This document shows positions 10,662-63,483 of a DNA stretch of 64,000 bases, one piece after another. The notes below the pieces were generated by a model, which was not told where the DNA came from, did no database searches, and saw only the letters and a list, made by a program, of their open reading frames with translations. The position numbers were made by a program, and so were the translations under genes. Each line of letters begins with the position of its first letter. The first letter of the stretch is position 1. The stretch covers positions 2,418,001 through 2,482,000 of the forward strand of contig NZ_CP007034.1 of assembly GCF_000512915.1 (NCBI RefSeq), read 5' to 3'. The stretch comes from Barnesiella viscericola DSM 18177 (lineage in GTDB: Bacteria > Bacteroidota > Bacteroidia > Bacteroidales > Barnesiellaceae).

Positions 10662-10662
10662 T

Positions 10663-13770: not shown

Positions 13771-14813
13771 AGCATTCCTCCTATATTGGTTGATGACACT
13801 TCTTTCATTTCTTCCACGGTCTGCCCTTCAGACAAACTATGGATTCCGGTTATGGCTATTCTGTCGTGAGGTTCCAACCCTCTTACAAATGCCGTTTCTC
13901 TTTCTATCCGTATTAATTTAACGGGTGTACAAGCAGCCTTCCCATTATTGATCTTCCATACGCATGTGTTCCCTTTATCCTGAAATAAAGCCGATGCAGG
14001 CAATGATAATGATGGGGTTGTGCTTGAATATGCTAATCTTATATCTACATTCATACCGACTGACAGGACTTTGGAAAATTCTGATGGTATGTCAAAGGAA
14101 ACATTGTATAGTTGTCCGTTTGATGCATTGCGGTTTTGGGCTTTTAATGTTATTGCGGTAGATAGATTACCGCACACAAGTTCTGCATATATAAGATTTT
14201 TCAATCTGTTATAATCTTTTAATGCCATACTTATGTCCGCCTTGTACCCACCTTCCTGTTTCAGAAGCAAAACGGGCATTCCGGCAGAAACTATCTCTCC
14301 GCTGTTTTTGAAAATATCTGATATGAAACAGTCAAATGGAGCTTTTATTTCCGTGTATCTCAAAGCATCTTCAGCAGCATTGAACTTGGCCTCTGCCACT
14401 TTGTTTGCAGCAATGACTTTCTCATAATCGTTTGGAGAGACTGTGTTATTCTCAAACAAGGCTTGTATGCGTTTCGTCTCTTTTTCCGATTGTTCGAATA
14501 CAGCTTTTGCAGCATTATACTGGACTTCAAAATCATGCTTGTCCAATGTTGCTATAATACTGCCTTTACGGAAACTCATTCCTTCATTTTCAGGTAAGAA
14601 TGCAATCTGGCCATTGACCTTAAAAGCTATGGTCACTTCTTTCTCCGAATTTATAACTCCAGAGTATTTGACATACTCAACGCTGTCTCTATTTCCTACT
14701 GTTAATGTTTTAACCAGTACAGAAGAGCTTTCTTTTCTTCCTGAATCTGTTTTACAGGAGGCTGATGCAAGAATAATAATTCCCGCACTCAAATACATAA
14801 ATAATCTTTTCAT
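13767..14813 (-). CDS. RND periplasmic adaptor (membrane fusion) lipoprotein
   Basis: 348 residues from the ATG at 14813 (MKRLFMYLSAGIIILASASC), which gives a lipoprotein signal with Cys at about residue 20; a start eight codons upstream would spoil it. Biotinyl-lipoyl-like halves (FKVNGQIAFLPENEGMSF and LRYTEIKAPFDCFISDI) flank a short coiled hairpin (FEQSEKETKRIQALFENNTVS). It bridges the RND pump and the TolC-like channel. First gene of the leftward efflux operon, divergent from an AraC regulator. Confidence 0.92.
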   Translation of the reverse strand: MKRLFMYLSAGIIILASASCKTDSGRKESSSVLVKTLTVGNRDSVEYVKYSGVINSEKEVTIAFKVNGQIAFLPENEGMSFRKGSIIATLDKHDFEVQYNAAKAVFEQSEKETKRIQALFENNTVSPNDYEKVIAANKVAEAKFNAAEDALRYTEIKAPFDCFISDIFKNSGEIVSAGMPVLLLKQEGGYKADISMALKDYNRLKNLIYAELVCGNLSTAITLKAQNRNASNGQLYNVSFDIPSEFSKVLSVGMNVDIRLAYSSTTPSLSLPASALFQDKGNTCVWKINNGKAACTPVKLIRIERETAFVRGLEPHDRIAITGIHSLSEGQTVEEMKEVSSTNIGGML

Positions 14814-14883
14814 TGTCTTAAACTTTAGCTTTTGCAAATTTCATCAAACCCAATGAGAAACACGTTTCCATTTACACATGCGG

Positions 14884-14976
14884 AATGTTCTAAAACCCTT
14901 TTTTTACTATGTGATTTAGAATAGTAGTTGCTGGATAAGGGAATATTATATTCATTTTTCCATTAAAAATGTTCTA
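14884..14976. promoter_or_regulatory. Possible regulator-binding direct repeats
   Basis: AATGTTCTA occurs at 14884-14892 and 14968-14976 in the divergent gap between the adaptor gene and the AraC gene. A further TTCTAAA/TTTAGAA inverted pair lies near 14889-14922. Candidate operators for the divergent AraC protein, by position only. Confidence 0.3.
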
Positions 14977-14990
14977 TTAGTAAGAAATTC

Positions 14991-15021
14991 TTTGATGGAA
15001 ATATGGATACAATTATATTTG
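14991..15021 (+). promoter_or_regulatory. Promoter TTTG-N19-TATATTTG of the AraC gene
   Basis: TTTG at 14991-14994, a 19-nt spacer and TATATTTG at 15014-15021 are a full consensus match. The ATG follows 13 nt after the -7 box, so the leader is very short. Confidence 0.7.
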
Positions 15022-15034
15022 TAATAAAAAAAAT

Positions 15035-15904
15035 ATGAACCAATTCAAGAACCTGGATATAAGAATAGCAAAGAATCTTATAGGCGATATAGATTATGTA
15101 GATAACGATTTTATTGTACTGGATGATCTCTCTAAATTCAATATTCCCAATGATTCACCCATCAGACTTGGTGCATTTACAATAAGTTTGTGTCTTAACG
15201 GACATATAACTACTGATATCAACATGATAAGGTACGACGTACAGCCGGGAGATATGGTAATAACACTTCCTAAAGATATAATAGAACACAAGGATGTTTC
15301 GTCTGATATCAGAGGAATTTTCTTTATTGTTTCACAGCGTTTTATTGAAGAAGCTTTTCCGAAAATAGGAGAAATACTTCCAATTTTTCTTTATATCCCA
15401 AAATACCCTAAAATTGAATTGACAGCAAATCAATGTTTCAATATACAGCAGTTTTATGATTTCTTTATCCAAAGACTTAAAGACCAGTCAGTATATAGAG
15501 ATAAAATGATAAGCTCGATACTGCAGGCTCTGATTTATTATATCACCGGCTTATTGATTAACTCTGATAAACGGGAAAAAAAGGAGAGAAAAGAAGAATT
15601 GCTGAGTAAATTTATTCAGCTGATAATAAAACACTACAAGGAAAACAGAACACTGGATTTCTATGCAGAAAAACTGTTTATTTCAACAAAATATATGTCA
15701 GACATTATAAAAAAGACAAGCGGACTGACAGCTCATGACTGGATAGACAGATATACCATTCTGGAAGCTAAGATTTTGTTACGGTCAACCAATAAGACAA
15801 TCCAAGAAATATCCAATGAGCTGAATTTCCCTAATCATTCGTTCTTTTCAAAATACTTTAAGCATCACATGGGTATGACTCCTAAGGCTTACAGGCAATC
15901 TTAA
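15035..15904 (+). CDS. AraC-family regulator, divergent from the RND efflux operon
   Basis: 289 residues. An N-terminal cupin-like sensor (about 30-150; LCLNGHITTDINMIRYDVQPGD) is followed by a complete AraC DNA-binding domain (about 195-288) with a first helix-turn-helix (LDFYAEKLFISTKYMSDIIK) and a normal family ending (FFSKYFKHHMGMTPKAYRQ). Its divergent position suggests it controls the efflux operon. Base composition is AT-rich like the efflux genes and unlike the genes on either side, so the regulator and pump probably arrived together. Confidence 0.88.
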   Translation: MNQFKNLDIRIAKNLIGDIDYVDNDFIVLDDLSKFNIPNDSPIRLGAFTISLCLNGHITTDINMIRYDVQPGDMVITLPKDIIEHKDVSSDIRGIFFIVSQRFIEEAFPKIGEILPIFLYIPKYPKIELTANQCFNIQQFYDFFIQRLKDQSVYRDKMISSILQALIYYITGLLINSDKREKKERKEELLSKFIQLIIKHYKENRTLDFYAEKLFISTKYMSDIIKKTSGLTAHDWIDRYTILEAKILLRSTNKTIQEISNELNFPNHSFFSKYFKHHMGMTPKAYRQS

Positions 15905-44300: not shown

Positions 44301-45560
44301 ATGGTGGCGAAAATCAACCGGGGCGTTTCGCTCTACGGGGCGCTCGCCTATAACTGGCAGAAGGTGGATGACAGGACCGCGCGTATAATATCGGGGAATG
44401 GAATGATTACTGATTCGGCCAACTGTCCCGATATTAATATGCAGAATGCCATCTACGGCTTCCGGAAATACCTGTTGGCAAACAAGAACACGGACAAGCC
44501 GATACTGCATATATCTCTCAATCCGTCGCTTGATGACAATCTCTCGGAAAAGCAGCTGGCAATGCTTGCCGACGAGTATATGCGCAAGATAGGCTATGGT
44601 TCCCAGCCATATATAGTGTTCCTTCATGAAGACATAGAGCGCCGCCACATACATATAGTGTCAACCTGCGTGAACGAGCGCGGAGAGAAGATCGACGACT
44701 CATACGAGTGGAACCGCTCCATGCGCGCCTGCCGCGAACTGGAACGGAAATTCGGGTTGCAGCAGGTGGCAGACAAACGCCGCGAACTGCTGGAACCGTA
44801 TCTGAAAAAGGCCGATTACCGTGACGGTGATGTGAAGCGTCAGATCGGCAACATTCTCAAGAGCGTGTTTTCATCATACCGTTTCCAGTCGTTCGGAGAA
44901 TACAGCGCGTTGCTGTCATGCTTCAACATCGAGGCGAAACAGGTGAAAGGTGAACATGAGGGAACTCCCTACAACGGTATCGTCTATGCGATTACCGATG
45001 ATTCGGGTCGTCCGGTCAGCACACCTGTCAAGTCATCGCTTCTCGGCAAGAGGTTCGGCTATGAGGGGATACAGAAACGTATAGGCTACAACGCGCGTGA
45101 CTATAAGGCTAAGAAATGGCAACCGAAGATTACGGCAGATGTCGCCATTGCCAAGCACGGTTGCCGTGTTGACCGTGACACCTTCGTGTTTATGCTGGCC
45201 TCGCGCGGCATAGACGTGGTGTTCCGGGAGAACGATGACGGGCGCATCTACGGCGCCACTTTCATAGACCACCGCAATAGAGAAGTGTATAACGGATCTC
45301 GGCTCGGCAGGGAGTTCTCGGCAAACGCTTTCGAGAATCTTTTCAATTCCAATACTGATATTCCGAGGCTTGACGGACGTAACGACGACCTGCGTATTGG
45401 CACACATTCCAATGCTGTCACCGACATTGGCGAAGCGATACAGCAGGCTTTCGGAATACTGTCGCTTGACACCAACGGACCAGATCCGCAAGAGGAAGCT
45501 CTGGCGAACCGTCTGCTTCGCAAGAAAAAGAAGAAACGCCGTTATCGCGGGCTGCAATAA
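44301..45560 (+). CDS. mobB: Relaxase / mobilisation nuclease MobB
   Basis: 419 residues. The MOBP-type metal-binding motif HEDIERRHIHIV begins near residue 109 and aligns with HxDxxRxHxHxV. Earlier, KPILHISLNPSLDDNLSEK is the usual second motif. It would nick oriT and pilot the strand into the recipient. The C-terminus is Lys/Arg-rich (LLRKKKKKRRYRG). Second gene of the mobABC operon. Confidence 0.93.
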   Translation: MVAKINRGVSLYGALAYNWQKVDDRTARIISGNGMITDSANCPDINMQNAIYGFRKYLLANKNTDKPILHISLNPSLDDNLSEKQLAMLADEYMRKIGYGSQPYIVFLHEDIERRHIHIVSTCVNERGEKIDDSYEWNRSMRACRELERKFGLQQVADKRRELLEPYLKKADYRDGDVKRQIGNILKSVFSSYRFQSFGEYSALLSCFNIEAKQVKGEHEGTPYNGIVYAITDDSGRPVSTPVKSSLLGKRFGYEGIQKRIGYNARDYKAKKWQPKITADVAIAKHGCRVDRDTFVFMLASRGIDVVFRENDDGRIYGATFIDHRNREVYNGSRLGREFSANAFENLFNSNTDIPRLDGRNDDLRIGTHSNAVTDIGEAIQQAFGILSLDTNGPDPQEEALANRLLRKKKKKRRYRGLQ

Positions 45561-45596
45561 AAACCGACATCATAAACCCTTAAAAAATTATACAAT

Positions 45597-47627
45597 ATGC
45601 AACAGGAAGATGACCTCAGGGGATTGGCGAAAGTCATGGAATTCATGCGCGCCATCTCCATCTTATTCGTAGTGATACATGTTTACTGGTATTGCTACCA
45701 GGCTATAACCGACCTTGGCGTGAACATCGGAGTCGTGGACCGCATACTGCTGAACTTCCAGCGGACTGCGGGACTTTTCAAGAACCTTCTTCTCACAAAG
45801 ATGTTCGCTCTGATATTCCTCGCCCTGTCATGCCTCGGCACCAAGGGCGTCAAGAACCGGAAGATGACATGGGAGAAAATCTACGGAGCCTACATATCGG
45901 GACTCGTGCTTTTCTTCATGAACTGGTGGATGCTTTCCTTGCCATTGTCTCCGATGGTGAATGCGGCGTTATACACCGCGACACTCACGGTCGGATACAT
46001 ACTGCTGCTCATGGCCGGAATATGGACAAGCCGCATGTTCCGCCACAACCTCATGGACGATGTGTTCAACACGGCCAACGAGAGCTTCATGCAGGAGACA
46101 CGCCTCATGGAGAATGAGTATTCGGTGAATCTGCCTACCAAGTTTGTGTATCAGGGACGCGAATGGGACGGATGGATAAACGTGGTAAATCCGTTCCGCG
46201 CTTCGATAGTTCTCGGTACGCCCGGTTCCGGCAAGAGCTACGCGGTGGTGAACAACTACATCAAGCAACAGATTTCCAAAGGGTTCGCGCTATACCTGTA
46301 TGACTACAAGTTTGATGACCTATCCATCATCGCCTACAACGAGCTGCTCAAAAACCTTGACAAATACAAGGTGAAGCCGGAGTTCTATGTGATAAATTTC
46401 GACGATCCTCGCCGCTCGCACAGGTGCAATCCTATCAATCCGCAGTTCATGGCGGATATCAGCGACGCATACGAATCGGCATACACCATACTCTTGAATC
46501 TGAACAAGACTTGGATACAGAAACAGGGAGATTTCTTCGTTGAGTCGCCGATTATCCTGCTCGCCGCTATAATATGGTACCTCCGTATATATAAGGAAGG
46601 ACGCTACTGTACCTTCCCCCATGCCATCGAGTTCCTAAATAAGCCGTATGCCGACATATTCACCATTCTCACCTCATATCCCTCGCTTGAAAACTACCTG
46701 TCCCCCTTTATGGACGCATGGAAAGGGGGCGCCCAGGACCAACTTCAAGGCCAGATAGCTTCCGCGAAAATCCCACTGTCGAGGATGATTTCGCCGCAGC
46801 TGTACTGGGTTATGACAGGCGATGATTTCACGCTCGACCTGAACAATCCGCAGGCTCCCAAAATCCTCTGTGTAGGCAATAATCCGGATAGGCAAAACAT
46901 ATATTCGGCTGCCCTCGGACTATATAACAGCCGAATAGTAAAGCTGATAAACAAGAAAGGACAGCTCAAGAGTTCAATCATCATTGACGAGCTGCCGACC
47001 ATATATTTTCGCGGCATCGACAACCTCATTGCCACTGCACGCTCCAACAAGGTAGCGGTATGTCTCGGCTTCCAGGACTTCTCCCAACTTGCGCGAGACT
47101 ATGGCGACAAGGAGGCGAAGGTAATCCAGAACACTGTCGGCAATATCTTCAGCGGGCAGGTCGTCGGCGAGACGGCAAAGAACTTGTCGGAGCGTTTCGG
47201 AAAGATACTCCAGCAGCGCCAGTCGGTATCCATCAACCGACAGGATACTTCCACCTCGATAAACACCCAGCTCGATTTCCTCATTCCCGCATCCAAGATA
47301 GCCAATCTGTCACAGGGTACGTTCGTCGGCAGCGTCGCCGACAACTTCGGCGAGGAGATAGACCAGAAGATCTTTCACTCGCGCATTATCGTTGACAGCG
47401 CAAGAGTGGCGGCAGAAACGAAAGCTTACAAGAAAATTCCTGTAATCAATGATTTTCTGGACGAGGATGGCAACGACATCATGCAGGAACAGATTGAAAG
47501 AAACTATTCTCAGATAAAGAATGATGTAGAGCAGATAATCGCCGACGAGATGGAACGCATTAAAAACGACCCGGAATTACAGCATCTGCTCCCGCCGGAG
47601 GATAACGGAGAAGGCGGGGAGAAATAA
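45597..47627 (+). CDS. mobC: Type IV coupling protein MobC (VirD4-like)
   Basis: 676 residues. Two or three N-terminal TM segments (about 17-35, 65-85, 95-140), Walker A GTPGSGKSYAVVN near 207 and Walker B SSIIIDELPTIYFRG near 459. It links the relaxosome to the mating channel as a VirD4/TraD-type ATPase. Palindrome copy D begins at the first base after its stop codon. Confidence 0.92.
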   Translation: MQQEDDLRGLAKVMEFMRAISILFVVIHVYWYCYQAITDLGVNIGVVDRILLNFQRTAGLFKNLLLTKMFALIFLALSCLGTKGVKNRKMTWEKIYGAYISGLVLFFMNWWMLSLPLSPMVNAALYTATLTVGYILLLMAGIWTSRMFRHNLMDDVFNTANESFMQETRLMENEYSVNLPTKFVYQGREWDGWINVVNPFRASIVLGTPGSGKSYAVVNNYIKQQISKGFALYLYDYKFDDLSIIAYNELLKNLDKYKVKPEFYVINFDDPRRSHRCNPINPQFMADISDAYESAYTILLNLNKTWIQKQGDFFVESPIILLAAIIWYLRIYKEGRYCTFPHAIEFLNKPYADIFTILTSYPSLENYLSPFMDAWKGGAQDQLQGQIASAKIPLSRMISPQLYWVMTGDDFTLDLNNPQAPKILCVGNNPDRQNIYSAALGLYNSRIVKLINKKGQLKSSIIIDELPTIYFRGIDNLIATARSNKVAVCLGFQDFSQLARDYGDKEAKVIQNTVGNIFSGQVVGETAKNLSERFGKILQQRQSVSINRQDTSTSINTQLDFLIPASKIANLSQGTFVGSVADNFGEEIDQKIFHSRIIVDSARVAAETKAYKKIPVINDFLDEDGNDIMQEQIERNYSQIKNDVEQIIADEMERIKNDPELQHLLPPEDNGEGGEK

Positions 47628-52908: not shown

Positions 52909-53169
52909 ATGACAATGAATCAGGAAAACATAGCTCCTTTCAATGCCGAAGATGTGGACTGGGGCGAACTGGAATCCATCGGCATACTCCGTGACGAGCT
53001 TGAGATGGCCGGCGAACTCGACACGCTCCTGCAAGGTGGGAAAACCGGTGTGATATCCCTCAGTCTCGTGCTCCTCGGTGTGGATGTCGTCCTCGACGCC
53101 ACCTTGCAGCTTGTACGCAGGGATAGCGGCGAACCGCTCCTTGAGATTATCGGCATCAAGCCCGCATGA
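52909..53169 (+). CDS. Small DUF4099-type protein
   Basis: 86 residues. VDWGELESIGILRDELEMAGELD lines up with the DUF4099 segment of the upstream protein (IDWEQLKLFGISRDYLAERG), so it is a stand-alone copy of that domain. Lies between that gene and topB. The ATG at 52915 is an alternative start. Confidence 0.78.
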   Translation: MTMNQENIAPFNAEDVDWGELESIGILRDELEMAGELDTLLQGGKTGVISLSLVLLGVDVVLDATLQLVRRDSGEPLLEIIGIKPA

Positions 53170-53198
53170 CAGAGCCTTATATAACCTAATGTCAAACC

Positions 53199-53233
53199 GC
53201 CGTTCCCTGCCCCTGACTATGGCGGGGAACGGC
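53199..53233 (+). terminator. Hairpin upstream of topB
   Basis: GCCGTTCCCTGCC (53199-53211) pairs with GGCGGGGAACGGC (53221-53233), followed by TAAATTTTT. It could attenuate transcription into topB, 16 nt downstream. Confidence 0.6.
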
Positions 53234-53249
53234 TAAATTTTTACACAAT

Positions 53250-55346
53250 ATGATAGCAATCATAACTGAAAAGCCGAGTGTAGGGCAGGACATCGCCCGT
53301 GTCGTCGGCGCCAATATACGCAAAGAGGGTTACTGTACCGGCAACGGCTACATGGTGACATGGGCGCTCGGGCACCTCGTGTCGCTCGCCATGCCGGGCG
53401 CATACGGTTACGACCGTACAACTCCCGAAACCCTTCCCATGATTCCCGACCCATTCCGGCTGGTGGTGCGCCAGATCCGTACCGACCGTGGCATGGTAAC
53501 TGACATCGCCGCCGCAAAGCAACTCAAGATCATTGACGATGTGTTCTCGAAATGCGACAGCATCATCGTGGCGACCGATGCGGGACGCGAAGGGGAACTC
53601 ATCTTCCGCTATATCTATGAATACCTCGGCTACACCAAGCCTTTCCGCAGACTGTGGATATCGTCGCTCACAGACGAGGCAATCCGTACCGGCATGGCGA
53701 ACCTGCGCGACGGTCGTGAGTACGACAGCCTCCATGCCGCCGCAGATTGCCGCGCGAAAGCCGACTGGCTTGTGGGGATGAACGCCAGCCGCGCCCTCGC
53801 CTGCGTGTCGGGCACTTCCAACAGCTCAATCGGACGTGTGCAGACACCCACGCTGGCTATGGTGTGCGCCCGTTTCCGTGAGAACCGTGATTTCGTGTCC
53901 GCCCCTTACTGGCAGCTCCATGTGACTCTCTCCAGGGACGGCAGTCTGTGCCGTTTCTTCCACAAGGATGATTTCAGGGAAAAGACACAGGCTGACGCCG
54001 CCTTCTCCCGTATCGTACCCGGTGCCACGGGGCGTGTCACCAAGGCGGAATGCAGGCGTTCCGACCGCCAGCCTCCGCTTCTTTACGACCTCACAGCTCT
54101 CCAGAAGGACTGCAACGTACATCACGACATGACCGCCGAAAAGACTCTGGCCGTGGCGCAGTCGCTCTACGAGAAGAAACTGATATCCTATCCGCGAACC
54201 GGGAGCCGTTACATACCGCAGGATGTCATGCGAACCGTGCCGGAACTGCTGCAAAAGGTGTGCGCCATGCCGGAATTCCACGCCTACGGCACTGCTTTTG
54301 ACCTTTCAACGCTCAACAACCGCAGCGTAAACGACTCCAAAGTGACCGACCATCACGCTCTGATTGTCACCGGTGTCACCTCCTCGGGCATTTCAGGCGA
54401 CGAACGTGCCGTCTATCTGATGATTGCCGGGCGTATACTCGAAGCATTCTCGCCACCGTGTGTCACCGAAACATACCTGACCGAAGCCGAAATCTGCGGG
54501 ATGCCGTTCCGTTCCAAGTCCTCGTCCGTCGTAATACCCGGCTGGCGTGCCGTGTTTGACCGCAAGGAGGACCGTGGCGAGGATGAATCCGATGAAAATG
54601 CGGCTTGCCCAGCCTTTTCAGTTGGTGACACCGCACCGGTTTCGGGACAAGGGCTGGCGCAGAGGAAGACCATGCCGCGTCCGTTGTACACCGAGGCCAC
54701 CCTCCTTGCCGCAATGGAATCGTGCGGCAAGGATATCACCGATGAGAAGGCGCGCGAGGCTGTCCGCGACATAGGCATCGGCACGCCCGCCACTCGTGCG
54801 GCCATTATCGCCACGCTGGTGAAACGCGACTACATACGTCGTTCCGGCAAGAGCATCGTACCCACCGACAAAGGTCTGGCACTGTACGATGCCGTAAAGG
54901 ATATGCTCGTGGCGGATGTAGGCATGACAGGCAGCTGGGAAAACACACTGTTGCAGATTGAACGGCACACTCTTGAACCCTCTACCTTCATGAACGCCAT
55001 CGTCGGCTATACGCGCAAGGCCACCACTGAAATTCTCGGAATAACCGTGCCAGTCACCCCGGTACATTCCCGACCGTGTCCCAAATGCGGCAAAGGGAAT
55101 GTCGTCATTCGAGCCAAGACTGCCCGGTGCGATAACACAACCTGCGGTCTGTTGGTATTCAGACGATTCTTGAACAAGGAACTCACGGACGGCCATATCG
55201 AGCAGTTGCTGTCATCCGGCAAGACTAAGCTGATAAAGGGATTCAAGGGAAAGAAGGGAAATTCATTCGATGCCATGCTTGTTTTCGACGGCGGCTACAA
55301 TGTCACGCTCGCTTTCCCGGACAGGAAGACTTCAAGAAAGAGATAG
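53250..55346 (+). CDS. topB: DNA topoisomerase III (type IA)
   Basis: 698 residues. The Toprim domain (AIITEKPSVGQDIARVVGA; VATDAGREGELIFRYIYEY) and the active-site motif YPRTGSRYIP with Tyr near 314 define a type IA topoisomerase. The C-terminus has a cysteine zinc motif (CPKCGKGN, CDNTTCGL). ICE-encoded TopB relatives act in element processing and transfer. Last gene of the DUF3945 operon; palindrome copy F begins four bases after its stop. Confidence 0.95.
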   Translation: MIAIITEKPSVGQDIARVVGANIRKEGYCTGNGYMVTWALGHLVSLAMPGAYGYDRTTPETLPMIPDPFRLVVRQIRTDRGMVTDIAAAKQLKIIDDVFSKCDSIIVATDAGREGELIFRYIYEYLGYTKPFRRLWISSLTDEAIRTGMANLRDGREYDSLHAAADCRAKADWLVGMNASRALACVSGTSNSSIGRVQTPTLAMVCARFRENRDFVSAPYWQLHVTLSRDGSLCRFFHKDDFREKTQADAAFSRIVPGATGRVTKAECRRSDRQPPLLYDLTALQKDCNVHHDMTAEKTLAVAQSLYEKKLISYPRTGSRYIPQDVMRTVPELLQKVCAMPEFHAYGTAFDLSTLNNRSVNDSKVTDHHALIVTGVTSSGISGDERAVYLMIAGRILEAFSPPCVTETYLTEAEICGMPFRSKSSSVVIPGWRAVFDRKEDRGEDESDENAACPAFSVGDTAPVSGQGLAQRKTMPRPLYTEATLLAAMESCGKDITDEKAREAVRDIGIGTPATRAAIIATLVKRDYIRRSGKSIVPTDKGLALYDAVKDMLVADVGMTGSWENTLLQIERHTLEPSTFMNAIVGYTRKATTEILGITVPVTPVHSRPCPKCGKGNVVIRAKTARCDNTTCGLLVFRRFLNKELTDGHIEQLLSSGKTKLIKGFKGKKGNSFDAMLVFDGGYNVTLAFPDRKTSRKR

Positions 55347-55350
55347 GACA

Positions 55351-55531
55351 GTGAATGCCGTCATTCGGATTCGGAGGCGAAGTTCGTGGCTCGCCCGTTT
55401 CCACCGTCAAGGCCGGGCCTTGCGGTACGGGCAAAAATCATCCTCGCTTCGCTCCGGTATTTTTACCCGTAGCCTTGCCTGTGGAGGCGCGCCACGGGGG
55501 AGCCTCCGAAATCCGGATGACACCGTGTCAC
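55351..55531. repeat. Palindromic intergenic element, copy F
   Basis: 181 bp between topB and the nitrosative-stress module. The outer arm around GTCAT-CGGATT-CGGAGGC (55351-55378) pairs with 55501-55531, and GTGGCTCGCC with GGCGCGCCAC. Core CATCCTCGC-TTC-GCTCCGGTAT with a GGGCAAAAAT/ATTTTTACCC stem. The CAAAGGTA box is degenerate here (CGAAGTTC). Confidence 0.85.
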
Positions 55532-55551
55532 CCCGGTAAATATATATAGTT

Positions 55552-55788
55552 ATGAAAGCATCTGCACTTATCACAAGGATCATAGGCATGAGGTGGCTGT
55601 GGAAAGCGATCCTGATACTCGCTTTGGCCGCCGTGTTCGGATACCTCTATACAAGGGGAGTATCACCTGTATGGGCGGCGTTGGCAATAGTCTTTTTCAG
55701 GGGATTCTTCCGATTCCTCTATAAAATTGCCTGCATCATAGTGGCGGCGGCACTGCTGTTCGCCATAATCAGCGGTCTGATTTTCTGA
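55552..55788 (+). CDS. Small membrane protein, 78 residues
   Basis: Two or three hydrophobic helices (WKAILILALAAVFGYLY; VWAALAIVFFRGFF; IACIIVAAALLFAIIS). Unrecognised. First gene after palindrome F, 157 nt before the Nim-like gene. Confidence 0.65.
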   Translation: MKASALITRIIGMRWLWKAILILALAAVFGYLYTRGVSPVWAALAIVFFRGFFRFLYKIACIIVAAALLFAIISGLIF

Positions 55789-55945
55789 AATGTCACAATG
55801 CCATATGTCCTATAAATGTTAATCACAATATTTTATCGGATATGATAATGCTGTCTCTCTATCCGATGTGACTGGATGGTTATTGATGCTTCAGAAACAA
55901 TCAGATTGTTATTCTTTTATTTTTTATTTTTCTTAAATTTGCAAC

Positions 55946-56428
55946 ATGAAGCAGATGAGAAAAGCAGCAAGGCAGAAAGATGAGGAATGGGCACTTAATG
56001 TGTTTGACCGTGCACCCTTTGTAACTATGTCAATGATTCGTCTGGACGGAACGCCGTACGGACTCCCGCTGTCGTTGATAAGGAGTAACAGACGCACGTT
56101 TTATTTCCATTGCGCCGACGAGGGGGATAAGCTGGATTGCATAAGGGCCAATCCCGTTGTAAGTCTGAGTGCCGTCAGTCGATGCACCCCGAAGTTTGAG
56201 GCCGAGAAAAAGAATTTTACGATGTATTATGACTCTGCCATTGCTTTAGGGGAAGCGGAGATTGTGACTGATAATTCGGAAAAGATTATGGCTTTGCGTC
56301 TGCTCTGTCAACGCTTTCTCCCTAAACATATGGAGAATTTTGATGAAGCGATAAAGCGCAGTCTCGAACGAACCGTTGTTGTAAAGATAACGCTCACAGA
56401 GCCGTCGGTTGGAAAATCCAAGCCATAG
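55946..56428 (+). CDS. Pyridoxamine-phosphate-oxidase-fold protein (Nim-like)
   Basis: 160 residues of a PNPOx-like flavin-binding fold: GTPYGLPLSLIRSNRRTFYFHCADEG is close in layout to Nim nitroimidazole-resistance proteins, followed by KLDCIRANPVVSLSAVS and YYDSAIALGEAEIVTD. Activity on nitro-drugs cannot be claimed from sequence. A TAAATTTG box (55934-55941) ends four bases before the ATG, implying an almost leaderless transcript, or use of Met4. The next gene starts directly after its stop. Confidence 0.8.
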   Translation: MKQMRKAARQKDEEWALNVFDRAPFVTMSMIRLDGTPYGLPLSLIRSNRRTFYFHCADEGDKLDCIRANPVVSLSAVSRCTPKFEAEKKNFTMYYDSAIALGEAEIVTDNSEKIMALRLLCQRFLPKHMENFDEAIKRSLERTVVVKITLTEPSVGKSKP

Positions 56429-56719
56429 ATGAAGATCAAATATGAAATCAAGGTGGTATGGCAGATGATTCGTCTATACTGCCGCTTGAAAGAAGGGTAC
56501 AAAAATCTTTGTCCGGATTGTGAAAAACTGGCGGAATATGCGGAAAACCGTCTGCGCCATTGTCCTTTCGGTGATGAAAAGGGAAGCTGCCGTAACTGTA
56601 AGATACATTGTTACCGCCCGGATATGAAAGAAAAAATAAAAGAGGTCATGCGTTTTTCCGGTCCGAGAATGCTGTTTTATCATCCCGTCATGGCTATACG
56701 CCATTTGGCAGGGAAATAA
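56429..56719 (+). CDS. Nitrous oxide-stimulated promoter family protein (YgbA-like)
   Basis: 96 residues with the cysteine pattern of the YgbA_NO family: CPDCEKLAEYAENRLRHCPFG, then CRNCKIHCYRPDMKEKIKEVM and RFSGPRMLFYHPVMAIRHL. E. coli YgbA is induced by nitric oxide and aids recovery from nitrosative stress. ATG abuts the stop of the Nim-like gene, so both are one transcript. A terminator hairpin follows. Confidence 0.88.
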   Translation: MKIKYEIKVVWQMIRLYCRLKEGYKNLCPDCEKLAEYAENRLRHCPFGDEKGSCRNCKIHCYRPDMKEKIKEVMRFSGPRMLFYHPVMAIRHLAGK

Positions 56720-56721
56720 TA

Positions 56722-56757
56722 AAGACATCCGAGGAGTCTATGCTCTCCGAATGTCTT
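56722..56757. terminator. Bidirectional terminator
   Basis: AAGACAT (56722-56728) pairs with ATGTCTT (56751-56757), extended by CCG/CGG and GAG/CTC pairs inside. It lies between the convergent YgbA-like and cupin genes. Confidence 0.75.
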
Positions 56758-56779
56758 AATTGTGAAAGCCAGTACGGGA

Positions 56780-57079
56780 TTATGCATTGAGTTTGGTGAC
56801 AAGAACCTTGAACCGTTCCGTAGCCTTTAAGGAATGTTTCACACCCGGTGTCATAGTGAGCGCATCACCCTCTTTCAACTCAAGCACTTTATCCTCAATA
56901 GTGAACTCCATGCTTCCTTCTATTATCTGGACGAGCACGTCGGCATTAGCCGTATGTGTGGGAATCTCAAGTCCCTTGTCTACTGCCATAAGGAGCGAAA
57001 GCCCGCTATGGTTCTGCATGACAATCTCCTTTGCTATGGAGCCGTCCGCGTATGGAATTCTGTCTTTTAATCTGAACAT
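56780..57079 (-). CDS. Single-domain cupin protein
   Basis: 99 residues, one cupin barrel: GLEIPTHTANADVLVQIIEG and ELKEGDALTMTPGVKHSLKA, with His residues fit for metal binding. Last gene of the leftward Hcp operon, 13 nt after the small membrane protein. Many such cupins in anaerobes sit beside redox-stress genes. Confidence 0.85.
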   Translation of the reverse strand: MFRLKDRIPYADGSIAKEIVMQNHSGLSLLMAVDKGLEIPTHTANADVLVQIIEGSMEFTIEDKVLELKEGDALTMTPGVKHSLKATERFKVLVTKLNA

Positions 57080-57092
57080 GTCGTAAATTTAT

Positions 57093-57212
57093 TTAGAGGT
57101 TTCTTTTTTTGCGAATCTTCATAGTGATGACAAAGCCGATGCCGAATATAAGAAAATATAATGCGGTGAAGGCAAGCCCGAGGCAGAGGAACAGTTCGGA
57201 TGATATTCTCAT
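57093..57212 (-). CDS. 39-residue membrane protein
   Basis: Translates as a single TM helix (ELFLCLGLAFTALYFLIFGI and onward) followed by a basic tail (MKIRKKRNL). Its ATG overlaps the stop of the upstream membrane-protein gene by four bases (57209-57212), which supports real, coupled translation. Lies between that gene and the cupin in the Hcp operon. It resembles small stress-related membrane proteins but has no recognised family. Confidence 0.7.
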   Translation of the reverse strand: MRISSELFLCLGLAFTALYFLIFGIGFVITMKIRKKRNL

Positions 57213-57631
57213 GACTTGACTGATTTAAAGGTTTCCTGCAAACGCGGCGGTATTCGCCCGTTCATATATTTCTGCCATCCGGCATTCAGTATGATAAGGA
57301 GCAATATCCACCATTCGGGGTATTTCAGAAAAAGCAACGACAGGGTTATTGCTACCGCTATGTTCACGACAATCCATCCCCACAATCCGGCCTTCCTGAA
57401 ATCAATCCTAACATCACCGGCAGCGGCCGCCACGCGCCACGTGCCGAGTCCGGACTCACAGACATATGCACAGTATGCCATGAGTGTGGAACCGAGAAGC
57501 GCCTCGGCAGCCGAATACCCGTGGTCAAGATGGAAATATGCTGCAAGCGACAGCGCCGCCAGCCAAAGGATGGCGTGTGCCGCCGCTATCACATATTTAT
57601 GGATAAACCGATTCACATTCCGACCGTCCAT
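57209..57631 (-). CDS. Integral membrane protein of the Hcp operon
   Basis: 140 residues with about four TM helices (VIAAAHAILWLAALSLAAYF; ALLGSTLMAYCAYVCES; WGWIVVNIAVAITLSLLFL; WWILLLIILNAGW). Unrecognised. Five nt after hcp and coupled to the 39-residue protein, so likely functions with Hcp under nitrosative stress. Confidence 0.75.
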   Translation of the reverse strand: MDGRNVNRFIHKYVIAAAHAILWLAALSLAAYFHLDHGYSAAEALLGSTLMAYCAYVCESGLGTWRVAAAAGDVRIDFRKAGLWGWIVVNIAVAITLSLLFLKYPEWWILLLIILNAGWQKYMNGRIPPRLQETFKSVKS

Positions 57632-57636
57632 TTCTT

Positions 57637-59307
57637 TCAGCCGATAAGGGTAGCCAGATCTTCGTCAACGGTGGTGATGGTACCTATATTGAACTTCTCC
57701 TGAAGCACTTTCAGAATTTCGGGGGTGAAAAACGCCGGCAGCGTCGGGCCGGTGTGGATATTCTTCACTCCGAGGCTCAACAGGGCCAGAAGCACTATCA
57801 CCGCCTTCTGCTCATACCATGCGATGTTGTAGACAATCGGCAGATCGTTGACACTCTCCAGGCCGAAAGCATCCTTGAGAGCATTGGCAATCACGACGAG
57901 CGAATAGGAATCGTTACACTGTCCGGCATCGAGCACGCGCGGAACACCCTCGATATCACCGAGCGGAAGCTTGTTGTAGCGGTATTTGGCACAGCCTGCG
58001 GTGAGAATCACGCAGTCTTTAGGGAGCCTTTCCGCAAATTCCGTATAGTATTTGCGCGAGGGCATTCTGCCGTCACAGCCTGCCATGACCACAAACTTGC
58101 GGATTTTACCGCTTTTGATGAGGTCGATAATCTTAGGTGCCAGAGCGAGCACCTGGTTATGGGCGAATCCGGCGACAATCTCACCGTGCTCTATCTCTGT
58201 CGGCGGCTGGCATGTCTGCGCCCGCTCTATGATTTCGGAAAAATCCTTTTTGCCGTCCTTCCCCTCGAGGATAAAATGTGTGCCGGGCATTCCGACGACA
58301 CCGGTCGTGTAGACGCGGTCCATGTAGGTGGTTTTCGGACGCGGGGGCACAATGCAGTTGGAGGTGAAGAGGAACATGCCGTTGAATGTCTCAAACTCGT
58401 CAATCTGCCGCCACCATGCGTTGCCGTAGTTTCCTGCGAAGTGGGGAAATTTCTTGAAGAACGGGTAGCTCTGGGCGGGGAGCATCTCCGAGTGGGTATA
58501 GATATCGACACCTTTGCCGGCGGACTGTTCGAGCAGTTCCTCAAGATCCTTGAGGTCATGACCGCTCACGAGTATGCCCGGATGGTTTCTGACACCAATG
58601 TCGACCCTGGTGATTTCGGGGTTGCCGTAGGTCGATGTGTTTGCCTTGTCAAGCAGCGCCATAGCCTTTACACCGCCCTCGCCCACATTAAGGACAAGCG
58701 AGAACAGTTCGTCCACATCTATGTCAGGACGGCTTATCTCGGCAAGGGCGTTCTCGATGATGACATATACATCTTCGTCCTCATAACCGAGGTTACAGGC
58801 GTGACGGGCATAGGCCGCCATACCCTTGCAGCCGTACATGGCAAGCTGTTTGAGACCTCTTATGTCCGGGTTCTTGTCGTGGAGAACACTTGTGATTTCT
58901 TCTTTAAGAGTACCTCCGTGTTCGATTACCTCATGTACGCCATATTCCTCCTTTGGAATATGATACGACACCTCAGGCATGAAAGGAGGCTCCATGCCGC
59001 GTTTTTTCGACTCTCCTTCGAGTTCGTTTTTCAGTTCGAGGGCTTTTGTGATATAGCCGTCGAGCATATCATTGTCGAAATTCGCGTTGGTGATGGTGGT
59101 GAACAGTGCGTCGACGATAAACCGGGATGCACCCTTGCTTGATGCGCCTTTCTCGCGCAACTGCCGGTTTACGATGGCGATTCCCCGGGCTATATAAAGG
59201 AGCTGATCCATTCTTGCAGACGTCTCGGGTTTCTTTCCGCATACACCTTGTATCTCGCAGCCTTTGCCGCGTGCCGTCTCCTGGCACTGGTAACAGAACA
59301 TTTTCAT
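57637..59307 (-). CDS. hcp: Hydroxylamine reductase / hybrid cluster protein
   Basis: 556 residues. The N-terminal cysteines C5, C8, C17 and C23 ([20 protein letters not shown]) bind the first Fe-S cluster. Downstream cluster-binding segments are present ([56 protein letters not shown]). The enzyme reduces hydroxylamine or, in current views of E. coli Hcp, nitric oxide in anaerobes. Part of the operon DUF488, hcp, two membrane proteins, cupin. Confidence 0.95.
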
Positions 59308-59329
59308 AAGTGGAGGATATGTTAAGAAG

Positions 59330-59680
59330 TTATGTTGTTAGAAGATTATAGATCACAATAGCATTGTTATGTTGTTCGTCATGAGAGGAATAAAGTAACG
59401 TCACGACAGATTTCTGTGCAAGAAGATGTCGCAATGTCCCGAATGAAGGATTTTCCTCCAGTTCCTTGGTATATCGTATCTCAAATTCGGGCCAGCGGTC
59501 AGTGGGATCTTCATGGAACCATTCGCGGAGTTCTGTGGACGGCGCGATATCCTTATCCCACAAATCATAATGGAAAGTCTCGTGCGAGAGACCTCTCGGC
59601 CAAAGTCTGTCTATATATACCCTGAAGCCGTCTTCCGGAGAAGCGGGTTCGTAAGCCCGTTTTAATTGATATTGTGTCAT
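59330..59680 (-). CDS. DUF488 family protein
   Basis: 116 residues. [30 protein letters not shown] (shown in part) and [17 protein letters not shown] are the DUF488/YeaO signature. First gene of the leftward Hcp operon, 22 nt before hcp. Function unknown. Confidence 0.88.
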
Positions 59681-59872
59681 AAACTGTGATATTACATATT
59701 ACTATTTACTATCCAATTTCAACACCTGTATCTGCGGTATGGTTCATAATTAATAATGCGTCATTAGGATTGAATTTTATTTGAAATAAAGCATACCACA
59801 AAACTTGATATTAGTAGTACCCCGTTGAAAAATGACTGCATGAACCAGGGTCGAGTGGAATAGTCTGGCTGA

Positions 59873-60040
59873 CAGACCCGAAGGAACTACCGGGCAAAAT
59901 TAGCGCCCGCCTCTTTCGGACTGCAAGGCCGGGCCTGTCGGTTTCGGGAAAAATCATCCTCGCTACGCTCCGGTATTTTTCCCGAAAGCCTTGCATTACC
60001 GGAGTCGGCCGCTGTAATGCCCTTGTAGTTCATCGGGCTG
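59873..60040. repeat. Palindromic intergenic element, copy G
   Basis: 168 bp. CAGACCCGAAGGAACTAC (59873-59890) pairs with 60024-60040, and CTGCAAGGC with GCCTTGCA around CGGGAAAAAT/ATTTTTCCCG and a CATCCTCGC-TAC-GCTCCGGTAT core. CAAAATTA at 59895-59902 is a reversed TAnnTTTG box. Separates the nitrosative module from the PRTRC cassette. Confidence 0.87.
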
Positions 60041-60076
60041 CCAAGCCCGGATATTCAATAATAAATTAAAAAAGAA

Positions 60077-60292
60077 ATGACTATGAGACAGGCTATCATG
60101 ACAGCGGCACAGCCGGCGGTGACAATCCCGGTGCCGAAGAAAAGAATCGTCCGGATCCAAAGACCGGAAATCAAGTTTCCGTCACGCAGGACAGGGGGAC
60201 CGGTGCATATCTCCACCATCCTGGATCCTATAATTGAGATAAGCCGCCATCCCGACCGCAACAGGCTTCTCGCTGAATTCTTCAAGGGATGA
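60077..60292 (+). CDS. Hypothetical basic protein preceding the PRTRC cassette
   Basis: 71 residues, basic, Pro/Ile-rich (PVPKKRIVRIQRPEIKFPSRR), then a helix-like ILDPIIEISRHPDRNRLLAEFF. Unrecognised. 36 nt after palindrome G and 45 nt before the PRTRC-E gene, same strand. A minus-strand frame over the same DNA was judged a shadow. Confidence 0.58.
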   Translation: MTMRQAIMTAAQPAVTIPVPKKRIVRIQRPEIKFPSRRTGGPVHISTILDPIIEISRHPDRNRLLAEFFKG

Positions 60293-60337
60293 GCGCAGGC
60301 AATAACCGGAAATATTCACACTAAATACGATAAGAAT

Positions 60338-61423
60338 ATGTTTTTTCAATCAATGAACCAGATGATGACCCCTAACGTGGATATCACGTTGGTCATCCGC
60401 AAATCCGCCGAGGGACGCATGGCGGTGTCGGTGCTCCCGAAGTCAAACACACTCAAGGACGAGGCGCAGAACAGCATCGTGCCGCTGACACTTAACGGCA
60501 CACCCGAAGAACTCGACTCAGGCTTCATGCAGGTGGTCGCACGTCCTATGCAAAAAGCATCAGGACTGATCTCCAACATGGCGCAGTTCGAGGCGCAGGC
60601 CAACAAAGCAGCGTCATCGAGCAAGGGAGCTAAGGAAGCCAAGACGAAAGAATCCAAAGAGGACAGGGAGAAGCGCGAGAAGTATGAAAAGAATCTCAAG
60701 AAGGCAGAGGAGCATATCGCCGCCAAGAGACACAAGGAGGCTGTGGACGCGCTTACCGAGGCACGCAAGTACGCCAAACCCGACGACTTGAAGACAATCG
60801 ACGAGCGGCTTGACGAACAGAAGAAGTTAGTGGGACAAGGAGATCTCTTCGCAATGATGGAGGAACCCGAGCAGGCTCAACCGCAGCAGCCCCAAGTCCA
60901 GCAACCGGTGCAACAGCCCGCGACGGCGCAGGTACAGCAACCGCAGGCACAGCCTCTGCCAATGCCGGAACCTGTACCGCAAGTTCAACAGCAAACTGTT
61001 CAACAAACCGGGCCACAACAGCAACCTACCATGCCACAGCAGGAAATGCCGGCACAAGCCGCACATCCCGCTCAACAACCATACGGCAACCCAGGACAGG
61101 GATATGGTGGCCAGTACGGATATCCGCAACAGCCGCAGGGATGGCCGCAGCAGGCACATCCCAACGGTGGTTATCCGCAATATGCGCATCAAAATGGCGG
61201 GATGACGCCGCCAAACGGGGGACAACACGGCACGTATCCTCCCAACGGGCAGCCACGGTATGCGCAGCAGCCGATGCCATTCGAGCATGACATGGCAGCT
61301 CATGCACCAAGAATGGCGGACCCTGACGACGCTCCTCCTTACCGGCCGGAGGAATATGCAGACTACCCCGACTTCCCGGCATCAATGTTACAAGGAAACT
61401 ATGTTCAACCTCAAATGATGTAA
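60338..61423 (+). CDS. PRTRC system protein E
   Basis: 361 residues. The N-terminal domain (VDITLVIRKSAEGRMAVSVLP; PLTLNGTPEELDSGFMQVV) matches PRTRC-E proteins; a charged coiled coil (EDREKREKYEKNLKKAEEHI) follows, then a long Gln/Pro/Gly-rich tail from about residue 175. PRTRC stands for the ParB-related, ThiF-related cassette of mobile elements. Confidence 0.85.
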   Translation: MFFQSMNQMMTPNVDITLVIRKSAEGRMAVSVLPKSNTLKDEAQNSIVPLTLNGTPEELDSGFMQVVARPMQKASGLISNMAQFEAQANKAASSSKGAKEAKTKESKEDREKREKYEKNLKKAEEHIAAKRHKEAVDALTEARKYAKPDDLKTIDERLDEQKKLVGQGDLFAMMEEPEQAQPQQPQVQQPVQQPATAQVQQPQAQPLPMPEPVPQVQQQTVQQTGPQQQPTMPQQEMPAQAAHPAQQPYGNPGQGYGGQYGYPQQPQGWPQQAHPNGGYPQYAHQNGGMTPPNGGQHGTYPPNGQPRYAQQPMPFEHDMAAHAPRMADPDDAPPYRPEEYADYPDFPASMLQGNYVQPQMM

Positions 61424-61427
61424 GACT

Positions 61428-61649
61428 ATGGCACTCGAAATCACAGGAATCAAACGCGTGTTCACTTTCAAGAAAGGAACAGCCACAATCACACTTGACG
61501 ACCCCAATCCATCGGACAGCCCCGAAATGGTGATGGGTTTCTATTCCAACACCTATCCCGAACTGACAACCGCCACTGTCCACGGTCCCACCATGAAGGA
61601 CGATGCGGCGGTCTATGAGTTCAAGACCACAATCGGAACCAAAGGATAA
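61428..61649 (+). CDS. PRTRC system protein C
   Basis: 73 residues. ITGIKRVFTFKKGTATITLDD and YSNTYPELTTATVHGP match PRTRC-C. The short beta-hairpin/helix layout and C-terminal TTIGTKG, ending in glycine, recall ubiquitin-like proteins; the ThiF/E1-like gene at 63480 makes that comparison attractive but unproven. Four nt after PRTRC-E. Confidence 0.85.
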   Translation: MALEITGIKRVFTFKKGTATITLDDPNPSDSPEMVMGFYSNTYPELTTATVHGPTMKDDAAVYEFKTTIGTKG

Positions 61650-61655
61650 GAACCA

Positions 61656-61820
61656 ATGCCCGTAAAACCTAAAAAAGAGAACCAATGCAGACTCCTGAGC
61701 GAATCACAGTCGGAACAGCTCGCAAAACTGCTCATAAGCCAGACCGAGAGGCGCTATCATTACGGAGTGAACCGGCAAAGAAGAATTACAGCGCCCAGCG
61801 GTGCTGTAATTCTTTTCTGA
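61656..61820 (+). CDS. Possible 54-residue overlapping protein
   Basis: ATG at 61656 opens a frame (MPVKPKKENQCRLLSESQSE and onward) that overlaps the 5' end of the next gene in another frame and ends at 61820 inside a hairpin with T run. Both this start and the next at 61685 follow the same GAACCA sequence. It could be a leader peptide or the true gene of this stretch. Confidence 0.4.
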   Translation: MPVKPKKENQCRLLSESQSEQLAKLLISQTERRYHYGVNRQRRITAPSGAVILF

Positions 61821-62782
61821 AAACGACCTTCCAGAGCACAGTACCTTCGTTCATAATCAAGGATTATGGGGATGGGACTTTCAACATAATCACGCAGGAG
61901 AACTATGATTTCCTGCGTGATTCATATTTCCGATATGCGGAATTGTTGAACGTGAAGGCCGACCATACACCCGGCAGAACCCTGAATGATAGCATCAACC
62001 AGTTATTCTATGACTTGGAGACCATTCTCTCCGACAAGATTGGTCTGAATATCGAGATGTATGACGGCAGACTTCATTTTACACTCTGGAAATACCATCG
62101 CTGGGGAACCTGCGAGCTGTATTATTTCCCAATAAAATTTCTAACCCAAGTCAACGCCGAACTTAGACGTATAGCCATATCGTTCCTTAACAGGTTCATG
62201 CGCGCAAACGGGATAGGTTCAATATTGGATTGTGATGAACATGAGTGTATAATGGAAAGTATCCTTTGGGAACATGACACCAATGAGACAGACAAAGAAA
62301 TTATCAAGGACAGGAAACGCATAGAGTCATATCAGACCGGCGCGATAAACAAGCTACTCAAACGTGTTGAAACAAAGTCATATCATGATGACATACACAC
62401 TGCGTTACATGACTATAAGCCGGTTAGCGCATGGGAATCAAAACTGATAGACGCCATGCTGGACGGTATGGAATTCCTTGACCCGAAGAAACCGATAATG
62501 GATTATGACTATGACCCATATTTTGAGGAAGAGCCGGACATATATCCGGTGAGGCTGCACCGCCAGATCTGCATTGTTTATGAGGATGACGACATAGTGA
62601 CAAGGACACTGATTGACTTCATAAACTCTGATTACCGGGAATCATACGAGATAATACCGGTGACAACCATGAAACTGACTCCTGACACCAAATCTCTCTT
62701 CAAAATATCGGATGAGTATCCCGAACGGTTCTTTCAATGGTCCGACAAATTCATTAACATCATAAGAAATTTTGAATCATGA
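61685..62782 (+). CDS. PRTRC-cassette protein of unknown function
   Basis: 365 residues from the only available ATG (61685). The first 40 residues overlap another frame and a hairpin, so the true start may lie downstream at a non-ATG codon. From TVPSFIIKDYGDGTFNIIT on, the sequence looks like a real soluble protein. It sits between PRTRC-C and PRTRC-B, where PRTRC-F-type proteins occur in some cassettes; the match is positional only. Its stop overlaps PRTRC-B by four bases. Confidence 0.65.
   Translation: MQTPERITVGTARKTAHKPDREALSLRSEPAKKNYSAQRCCNSFLKTTFQSTVPSFIIKDYGDGTFNIITQENYDFLRDSYFRYAELLNVKADHTPGRTLNDSINQLFYDLETILSDKIGLNIEMYDGRLHFTLWKYHRWGTCELYYFPIKFLTQVNAELRRIAISFLNRFMRANGIGSILDCDEHECIMESILWEHDTNETDKEIIKDRKRIESYQTGAINKLLKRVETKSYHDDIHTALHDYKPVSAWESKLIDAMLDGMEFLDPKKPIMDYDYDPYFEEEPDIYPVRLHRQICIVYEDDDIVTRTLIDFINSDYRESYEIIPVTTMKLTPDTKSLFKISDEYPERFFQWSDKFINIIRNFES
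61781..61816 (+). terminator. Terminator-like hairpin within the start of the PRTRC gene
   Basis: AAGAATTACAGC (61781-61792) pairs perfectly with GCTGTAATTCTT (61803-61814); the loop is 10 nt and a TTTTCTG run overlaps the right arm end. An intrinsic terminator or attenuator shape lying inside the annotated reading frame. Confidence 0.55.
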
Positions 62783-63483
62783 CAAATACTAATCAACTGA
62801 CACGGGAGATAAGTTCCGTTATATATCCCAAGGCCGTTCTGATCGCCTATGTCAGCGAGGACGAGAAGAAGCATTTTCTGGAGATGCGTGCAATAGACAA
62901 GAATGGAAACATGGGTGAAGGACGCCCCGTGACCTTGGAGTTCATGAATGACCTTGTGAGAAATTATTCGGAAGTACATGACAGCACTCCATGCGGGATA
63001 TTGCCGTCAAATCTGCTGTATTGCGATACACGCAAGGGGTCTGAACGGTATGTATGGTATAATCCGCCGCAAAGACGAATGATGTATTTTGTGGAAAGCC
63101 TGAAGATTGAAAATGCGGAATATAATGTTCCGGGAGTGATCTATGAATCAAAGGAAGGTGGCGGAATGAACGTGTATGCCTTCAAAGGAGAAGTCCCCAC
63201 TCCGGAGACAAAACTGTACGCCGCCCCGTTTTTCAACGTCACGAGTGCCAGCGTGTGCATGGGGAATCCGAAAATTGAAAGTCCGAGGCAACCGACATTC
63301 GGAACATTTCTGGAATATCTTGAGAAAAGGTTCTGGCTGACGGAGTTCTCACACTTGGGCGGAGGCCGTAATCCTACGAAGTCCAATCTTGTGCTGGTGA
63401 CAAAGGCCGCACGTGACAAACCGTTCAACCTCAATGAACTTATACCTCTGAATAATCTTAAACTAAAAGACCTTCTGAAATGA
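62779..63483 (+). CDS. PRTRC system protein B
   Basis: 234 residues. IYPKAVLIAYVSEDEKKHFLEM, then PSNLLYCDTRKGSERYVWYNPP and FFNVTSASVCMGNPKIE are PRTRC-B signatures. Coupled to both neighbours by ATGA overlaps. Likely acts with the ThiF-like protein. Confidence 0.85.
   Translation: MTNTNQLTREISSVIYPKAVLIAYVSEDEKKHFLEMRAIDKNGNMGEGRPVTLEFMNDLVRNYSEVHDSTPCGILPSNLLYCDTRKGSERYVWYNPPQRRMMYFVESLKIENAEYNVPGVIYESKEGGGMNVYAFKGEVPTPETKLYAAPFFNVTSASVCMGNPKIESPRQPTFGTFLEYLEKRFWLTEFSHLGGGRNPTKSNLVLVTKAARDKPFNLNELIPLNNLKLKDLLK

Follow-up and report, generated by a model that had tools for sequence, protein, structure and literature searches.

We analysed a window of 64,000 nucleotides from Barnesiella viscericola DSM 18177 (positions 2418001-2482000 of the 3.08-Mb single-contig genome). 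It contains a seven-gene cassette centred on hcp, the gene for hybrid cluster protein (Hcp), carried in a PRTRC-type Bacteroidales integrative and conjugative element (ICE) at window positions of about 55791-59857 (Table 1). In this cassette a plus-strand pair, encoding a presumed flavoprotein and YgbA, converges on a five-gene minus-strand operon, duf488-hcp-mem140-mem39-cupin. All seven open reading frames (ORFs) were intact where an earlier note, made from the letters alone, had placed its named genes, and profile searches gave family matches for five of the proteins, each above the curated Pfam cut-off. Profile searches returned no family match for mem140 or for mem39, the latter searched in frame, and an Rfam search of positions 53000-62000 returned no match. 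The span proposed earlier for the module holds for the cassette genes and fails for its first ORF, mem78, which is part of the ICE backbone.

The borders of the cassette were set by comparison with related elements. A topB search of genome contigs gave 58 loci, and the gene order duf3945-orf86-topB-mem78-[slot]-PRTRC E-C-F-D recurs in most Bacteroidales loci of this set. For 28 loci both slot flanks, mem78 and PRTRC C, could be located; six cassette genes were counted in these loci, and mem39 was scored separately. The shared DUF3945-topB-mem78-PRTRC backbone is without any cassette gene in 26 of these loci, with a gap of 1.2-2.3 kb between mem78 and PRTRC C; the other two, in Barnesiella An22 and Phocaeicola sartorii, hold all six counted genes. 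As a cassette-free reference we used Muribaculaceae IMSAGC_006 (L090), whose TopB is 95% identical to that of the window. Alignment of the window with L090 placed the cassette in the interval between mem78 and PRTRC E, with its borders near 55791 and 59857. The corresponding slot in L090 is 130 bp long (counted by eye), including a terminator-like site.

The palindromes F and G, between which the module had earlier been placed, are real sequences: each has a 32-base core, and none was found in 100 shuffles. They were rejected as the ends of the cassette itself, since cassette-free L090 carries both cores, 578 bp apart. We also rejected mem78 as cargo, because it is found after topB in cassette-free ICEs. 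The presence of mem78 and both palindrome cores in L090 therefore assigns them to the backbone, flanking a slot. Copies of the palindrome core that match its inner part exactly occur in 14 of the 58 ICE loci, following topB, preceding PRTRC E, or both.

Since the backbone encloses the cassette, with mem78 on one side and the PRTRC genes on the other, its location would also fit a cassette that serves the element, protecting conjugation or the donor cell in inflammation-triggered transfer and not general host fitness. The L090 segment that the cassette replaces has a strong terminator-like site (10 pairs), and that of the window is weaker (7 pairs, 55859-55879), so that some read-through from the backbone is possible. 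However, the absence of the cassette from 26 of the 28 elements with both slot flanks indicates that transfer does not need it, and we regard this alternative as very unlikely.

The reading of the cassette as cargo is borne out by the element that encloses it. A relaxase, a coupling protein and a TraG-type conjugation ATPase are all present, and two tandem tyrosine recombinases are located close to the right end. The 9-bp repeat TATATTTGT marks the left end and has its right copy outside the window (L005:13749-13757), giving an element length of about 89 kb between copies. Of the eight other Barnesiella genomes, six (L166, L168, L169, L170, L172, L173) showed an unoccupied site, in which only 0.07-0.4 kb separates the C25-peptidase gene found left of the element (at about 5.8-7.2 kb in the window) from the right-flank gene; in An22 a gene matching window 7557-8721 sits at this junction, and G001 has other sequence there. 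The repeat TATATTTGT reads as what we take to be a Bacteroidetes -7 promoter box, and insertion may thus restore a promoter for the gene that follows. Together, the conjugation genes, the element ends, the unoccupied site in relatives and the presence in other genera strongly support the earlier view that the cassette is a cargo module on a conjugative element, with past transfer read from the sequence.

Window 55552-59680 has 100% DNA identity to An22 over 4129 bp, against 85% over 2921 bp for the chromosomal gene that adjoins the insertion site in the two genomes. A recent transfer of the cassette is evident from these comparisons. The whole gene set is present in four genomes, namely the window genome, An22, P. 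sartorii and Bacteroidales bacterium C34_57_MI_BP (L127), the last of which falls outside the 28-locus count because the backbone is missing on both sides. The earlier note had tied its reading to co-occurrence elsewhere, and the set does recur in three other genomes. Hcp of both P. sartorii and L127 is 97% identical to the window Hcp; Phocaeicola belongs to the Bacteroidaceae and Barnesiella to the Barnesiellaceae. Among nine Barnesiella genomes, hcp and the cassette were found only in the window genome and An22; in the ygbA search, whose listing names five Barnesiella genomes, the gene was again found in these two. The cassette hcp is the only hcp found in the window genome, An22 and L127, some genomes being drafts of unstated completeness. 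No hcp was found in the L090 and L143 genomes.

Table 1. Features of the window that bear on the hcp cassette and the element carrying it.
Feature	Position	Strand	Basis or remark
Left end of element, 9-bp repeat TATATTTGT	8794-8802	.	right copy outside window
Relaxase and coupling protein of element	44301-47627	+	profile search
topB, ICE backbone flank	53250-55346	+	topB locus survey
Core of palindrome F, ICE backbone left of slot	55433-55464	.	also in cassette-free L090
mem78, small membrane protein, ICE backbone	55552-55788	+	after topB in cassette-free ICEs too
Cassette as defined against cassette-free slot of L090	55791-59857	.	two alignments
Perfect 7-1-7 dyad AACAATCAGATTGTT, candidate activator site	55896-55910	.	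centred 43 bp before flavoprotein start
Presumed Bacteroidetes-type -7 box TAAATTTG	55934-55941	+	downstream of dyad
PNPOx-fold (Pyridox_ox_2) protein, presumably flavoprotein, earlier "Nim-like"	55946-56428	+	PF12900/PF01243
YgbA_NO protein	56429-56719	+	PF11756; seven Cys invariant across 26 rows
Small single-domain cupin	56780-57079	-	Cupin_2; relatives adjoin chromosomal hcp
mem39, short hydrophobic peptide	57093-57212	-	overlaps mem140 by ATGA
mem140, hydrophobic protein without family	57209-57631	-	profile search
Hcp, hybrid cluster protein (annotated hydroxylamine reductase)	57637-59307	-	Prismane/Hcp
DUF488 protein, first gene of hcp operon	59330-59680	-	best Pfam match "inactive" N3i clade
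Leader/promoter region of duf488-hcp operon with possible hairpin	59681-59857	-	
Core of palindrome G, ICE backbone right of slot	59949-59980	.	also in L090
PRTRC E, PRTRC C, F-position gene without family match, E2-D gene: backbone flank	60338-63483	+	

Divergence from the P. sartorii copy differed between genes. Synonymous divergence (dS) was 1.27 for ygbA, 0.40 for the flavoprotein gene, 0.36 for duf488, 0.19 for hcp and 0.17 for the cupin gene, with a ratio of nonsynonymous to synonymous divergence (dN/dS) of 0.07-0.16 for these five genes tested. The unequal dS values show that the cassette is a mosaic, in which recombination probably replaced the ygbA segment. Such a mosaic block, together with the scattering of close relatives of its individual genes over separate loci elsewhere, could also be taken to mean that the genes are chance neighbours without a common function. 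We consider this highly improbable, as the seven genes recur in one order in four genomes from at least two families, the low dN/dS values argue against it, and three of the genes are co-located on chromosomes in part of the genomes.

The origin of the assembled set was not traced to a single donor lineage. This candidate was rejected, since no donor unit was found and the nearest relatives of the individual proteins (Hcp 77%, DUF488 83% and flavoprotein 75% identical), although all in one family, f26, are encoded at different loci. Nearest to a unit were duf488 and ygbA, 6.4 kb apart in L074, and the flavoprotein and cupin genes, 5.7 kb apart in L072. IMG/VR, searched with Hcp, DUF488 and the flavoprotein, yielded no relative. 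Partial matches to the cassette occur in 14 PLSDB records, none of them covering more than 80% of it; the eight matches listed are all within hcp, and there was no mem140 match. In the Parabacteroides distasonis plasmid NZ_OY725747.1 (L204, 174 kb), hcp adjoins a Crp/Fnr gene among housekeeping-type genes. No description of an ICE-borne hcp cassette was found in the open-licence literature, with PRTRC papers judged by title, a scope that makes this weak evidence of novelty.

By position, the element also encloses a set of efflux-type genes and a locus with GH97 and TonB-receptor genes. The low-GC block at window 9178-15904 holds efflux-like genes, called by eye, and an AraC-family regulator. 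From L004:334-7562 onward, the GH97, FecR/sigma and TonB-receptor locus is about 99% shared with An22 up to the end of the An22 contig. The topB of An22 has a broken end with three tandem tyrosine recombinases (L041:3002-6315), an arrangement that we take to be that of RIT elements, and a second topB, 68% identical, lies beyond them in the opposite orientation.

The protein encoded by hcp carries the features of its family. It scored 549 bits against Prismane/Hcp and 797 bits against the NCBIfam hydroxylamine reductase model (cut-off 367), and aligns end to end with solved Hcp structures. On alignment to 1e2u, with positions counted by hand, the cluster ligands are kept; we take these to be His244, Glu268, Cys312, Cys406, Cys434, Cys459, Glu494, Lys496 and Cys3/6/15/21 of 1e2u. 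YgbA scored 139.7 bits against the curated PF11756 cut-off of 25. Seven Cys and two His are invariant in its alignment of 26 rows, which suggests a metal or iron-sulphur (Fe-S) site, and YgbA likely binds such a centre. Its predicted structure had a predicted local distance difference test score (pLDDT) of 88 and no PDB match at E <= 0.001; that of mem140 had a pLDDT of 49 and was unusable.

Both hcp and ygbA have been linked to nitric oxide (NO) or nitrite in other bacteria. In B. thetaiotaomicron, hcp ranks with the genes that nitrite induces most strongly, and cells that lose it are less fit under nitrite (PMC13370916). Reports from enterobacteria give ygbA mRNA as 31.8-fold and hcp mRNA as 284-fold higher in a Salmonella nsrR mutant (PMC2884951), and name hcp and ygbA as NsrR-regulated and NO-responsive in E. 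coli CFT073 (PMC5320621). The family model that recognises Hcp bears the name hydroxylamine reductase, and E. coli Hcp has been implicated in oxidative stress (PMC2884951). The cassette might on these grounds be a general redox, hydroxylamine or oxidative-stress module, with Hcp acting on hydroxylamine or peroxide and not on NO. However, ygbA, a member of the enterobacterial NO regulon, is found in the cassette and beside some chromosomal hcp genes, and no cassette family match points to peroxide or oxygen. We find this alternative unlikely.

The role of the cassette in nitrosative stress was further weighed against chromosomal hcp loci. When the 28 hcp loci that scored best after those of the window genome and An22 were examined with at most 1.5 kb on either side, 11 had a related cupin and four had ygbA; in 16 wider hcp loci, partly from the same genomes, five had a cupin. 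Twelve genomes have both hcp and ygbA when the window genome and An22 are left out, and ygbA lies 83-604 bp from hcp in five of them. By a rough estimate, chance would bring one ygbA and one hcp so close in about 0.1% of genomes of about 3.5 Mb. Adjacency of hcp and ygbA was read from tables, compared by eye, in three further genomes (G214, G340, G385) and was confirmed in G214. Divergent Crp/Fnr-type genes and ferredoxin-like genes each lay within 4 kb of hcp in seven of 16 chromosomal loci; the ferredoxin-like genes were called by eye from cysteine motifs, and one Crp/Fnr-type protein was family-scanned. Chromosomal Bacteroidales loci such as L019, L027, L185 and L196 resemble the cassette in their hcp, cupin and ygbA neighbours, with cupins 29-39% identical to that of the cassette, and the loci searched differ from it in having no mem140 and no duf488 relative. 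The presence of ygbA and a small cupin beside chromosomal hcp in part of the Bacteroidales supports a role in nitrosative stress. With the kept Hcp ligands, YgbA and this partial co-location of hcp, ygbA and cupin, the nitrosative-stress theme of the earlier note is supported, as judged from families and gene neighbourhoods.

Several points weigh against such a role. Seven of the 12 genomes that have both genes carry ygbA and hcp on separate contigs. Besides its cassette copy, P. sartorii possesses another hcp, 60% identical, so the cassette fills no gap there. Among 393 sampled Bacteroidales genomes, mem140 was found in two, both element-bearing Barnesiella. Unlike the chromosomal loci, with seven of 16 in each case, the cassette has neither a Crp/Fnr gene nor a ferredoxin-like gene, and at two mismatches or fewer no HcpR-type site GTAACnnnnGTTAC was found in either cassette promoter region. 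Crp/Fnr-type matches occur in all nine Barnesiella genomes, and the one compared is 24-35% identical to hcp-linked proteins, which are themselves mutually divergent (31-46% identical to the first of them). In enterobacteria, ygbA and hcp-hcr are described as dispensable for a novel NO-scavenging activity (PMC5320621). A second report states that hcp hcr gave respiration no protection with hmp present, and that no member of the NsrR regulon besides hmp protected growth from S-nitrosoglutathione (GSNO) (PMC2884951).

The promoter regions offer candidate elements of their own. The dyad AACAATCAGATTGTT before the flavoprotein gene is kept in the P. sartorii copy and was not seen before the chromosomal flavoprotein relative in L072. 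At two mismatches or fewer its pattern matched twice, at one site read on both strands, where 0.25 matches were expected, and five of 100 shuffles reached two, so that the dyad is suggestive only; it is possible that it represents an activator site. The motif TAAATTTG downstream fits what we take to be the Bacteroidetes -7 consensus. In the window, the spacer of the flavoprotein promoter (55911-55934) is 6 bases longer than in P. sartorii and L127. The putative hairpin in the duf488-hcp leader (59700-59815, minus strand) shows one compensatory change in P. sartorii, G-C to U-A, seen by eye. The folding energy of this leader was not significant (z -1.66 for the window copy and +0.55 for the P. 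sartorii copy), and we do not claim a hairpin. Before chromosomal hcp, TGTAACnnnnGTTACA-like sites were readable by eye in L081, L082 and L083 and were weaker in L085 and L161; they agree with the HcpR2 motif of Rodionov et al. (PMC1274295).

The flavoprotein had earlier been described as Nim-like, which raised the question of nitroimidazole tolerance. In that case the flavoprotein would be a Nim reductase and the other genes would aid redox balance. The protein belongs to the PNPOx family, as nim genes (nimA-K) do, and is about 32% identical to NimE and NimA; its solved relative 2fg9 is named a 5-nitroimidazole antibiotic resistance protein, and among NCBIfam models it matches NimIJ and NimABCDEF best. 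However, the window flavoprotein and the P. sartorii copy each scored 75 bits on these models, whose cut-offs are 260/270 bits; the B. fragilis NimE control scored 314, and an ordinary chromosomal paralogue in the window genome scored 96, above the cassette protein. The gene context also differs from that of nim genes, and Hcp, YgbA and DUF488 have no part in nim biology that we are aware of. Membership in Nim was rejected on these scores, the suggestion of nitroimidazole tolerance falls with it to a very slight probability, and we therefore name the product a PNPOx-family protein.

Among the closest known systems, the hcpR-snoA-hcp locus of B. thetaiotaomicron is likewise an hcp locus for nitrosative defence in a Bacteroidales gut commensal; it has HcpR and an RNA locus beside hcp, whereas the cassette has no HcpR gene or site, adds duf488, the membrane pair, cupin, ygbA and the flavoprotein gene, and is mobile (PMC13370916). 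The enterobacterial NsrR regulon (hcp-hcr, ygbA, ytfE, hmp) also places hcp and ygbA under NO-linked control, but in separate transcription units and with Hcr beside Hcp, unlike the single block of the cassette (PMC2884951, PMC5320621). The B. thetaiotaomicron genes BT2643-BT2649 look like a PRTRC-type ICE, with DUF4099, PRTRC E and E2-D genes listed (PMC10434189).

We propose that the cassette is likely an accessory NO/nitrite defence module in a slot of PRTRC-type Bacteroidales ICEs, a function inferred from its genes. In the presence of NO or nitrite, the duf488-hcp-mem140-mem39-cupin operon and the flavoprotein-ygbA pair would be expressed. Hcp would reduce NO to N2O, or otherwise clear reactive nitrogen, with electrons supplied by the host, and YgbA, through its likely metal or Fe-S centre, may aid recovery. 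The cupin, DUF488, membrane pair and flavoprotein would be helpers of an unspecified step, and the net effect would be NO defence given to hosts without hcp. A further idea, which we hold to be improbable, is a self-contained, HcpR-independent Hcp system, with the flavoprotein and/or mem140-mem39 replacing Hcr/ferredoxin and the dyad or leader RNA replacing HcpR. If this were true, one transfer would turn an hcp-less commensal NO-tolerant, across families of gut Bacteroidales.

Hcp-based defence aids the persistence of B. thetaiotaomicron under host-derived nitrosative stress in the gut (PMC13370916). A mobile defence cassette of the kind proposed here would make Hcp-type defence transferable between gut species. 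The two of nine Barnesiella genomes that carry it provide a natural comparison of hosts with and without the cassette. The cassette also links the little-known YgbA, DUF488-N3i, small cupin and mem140/mem39 proteins with Hcp, so that their roles may be tested jointly.

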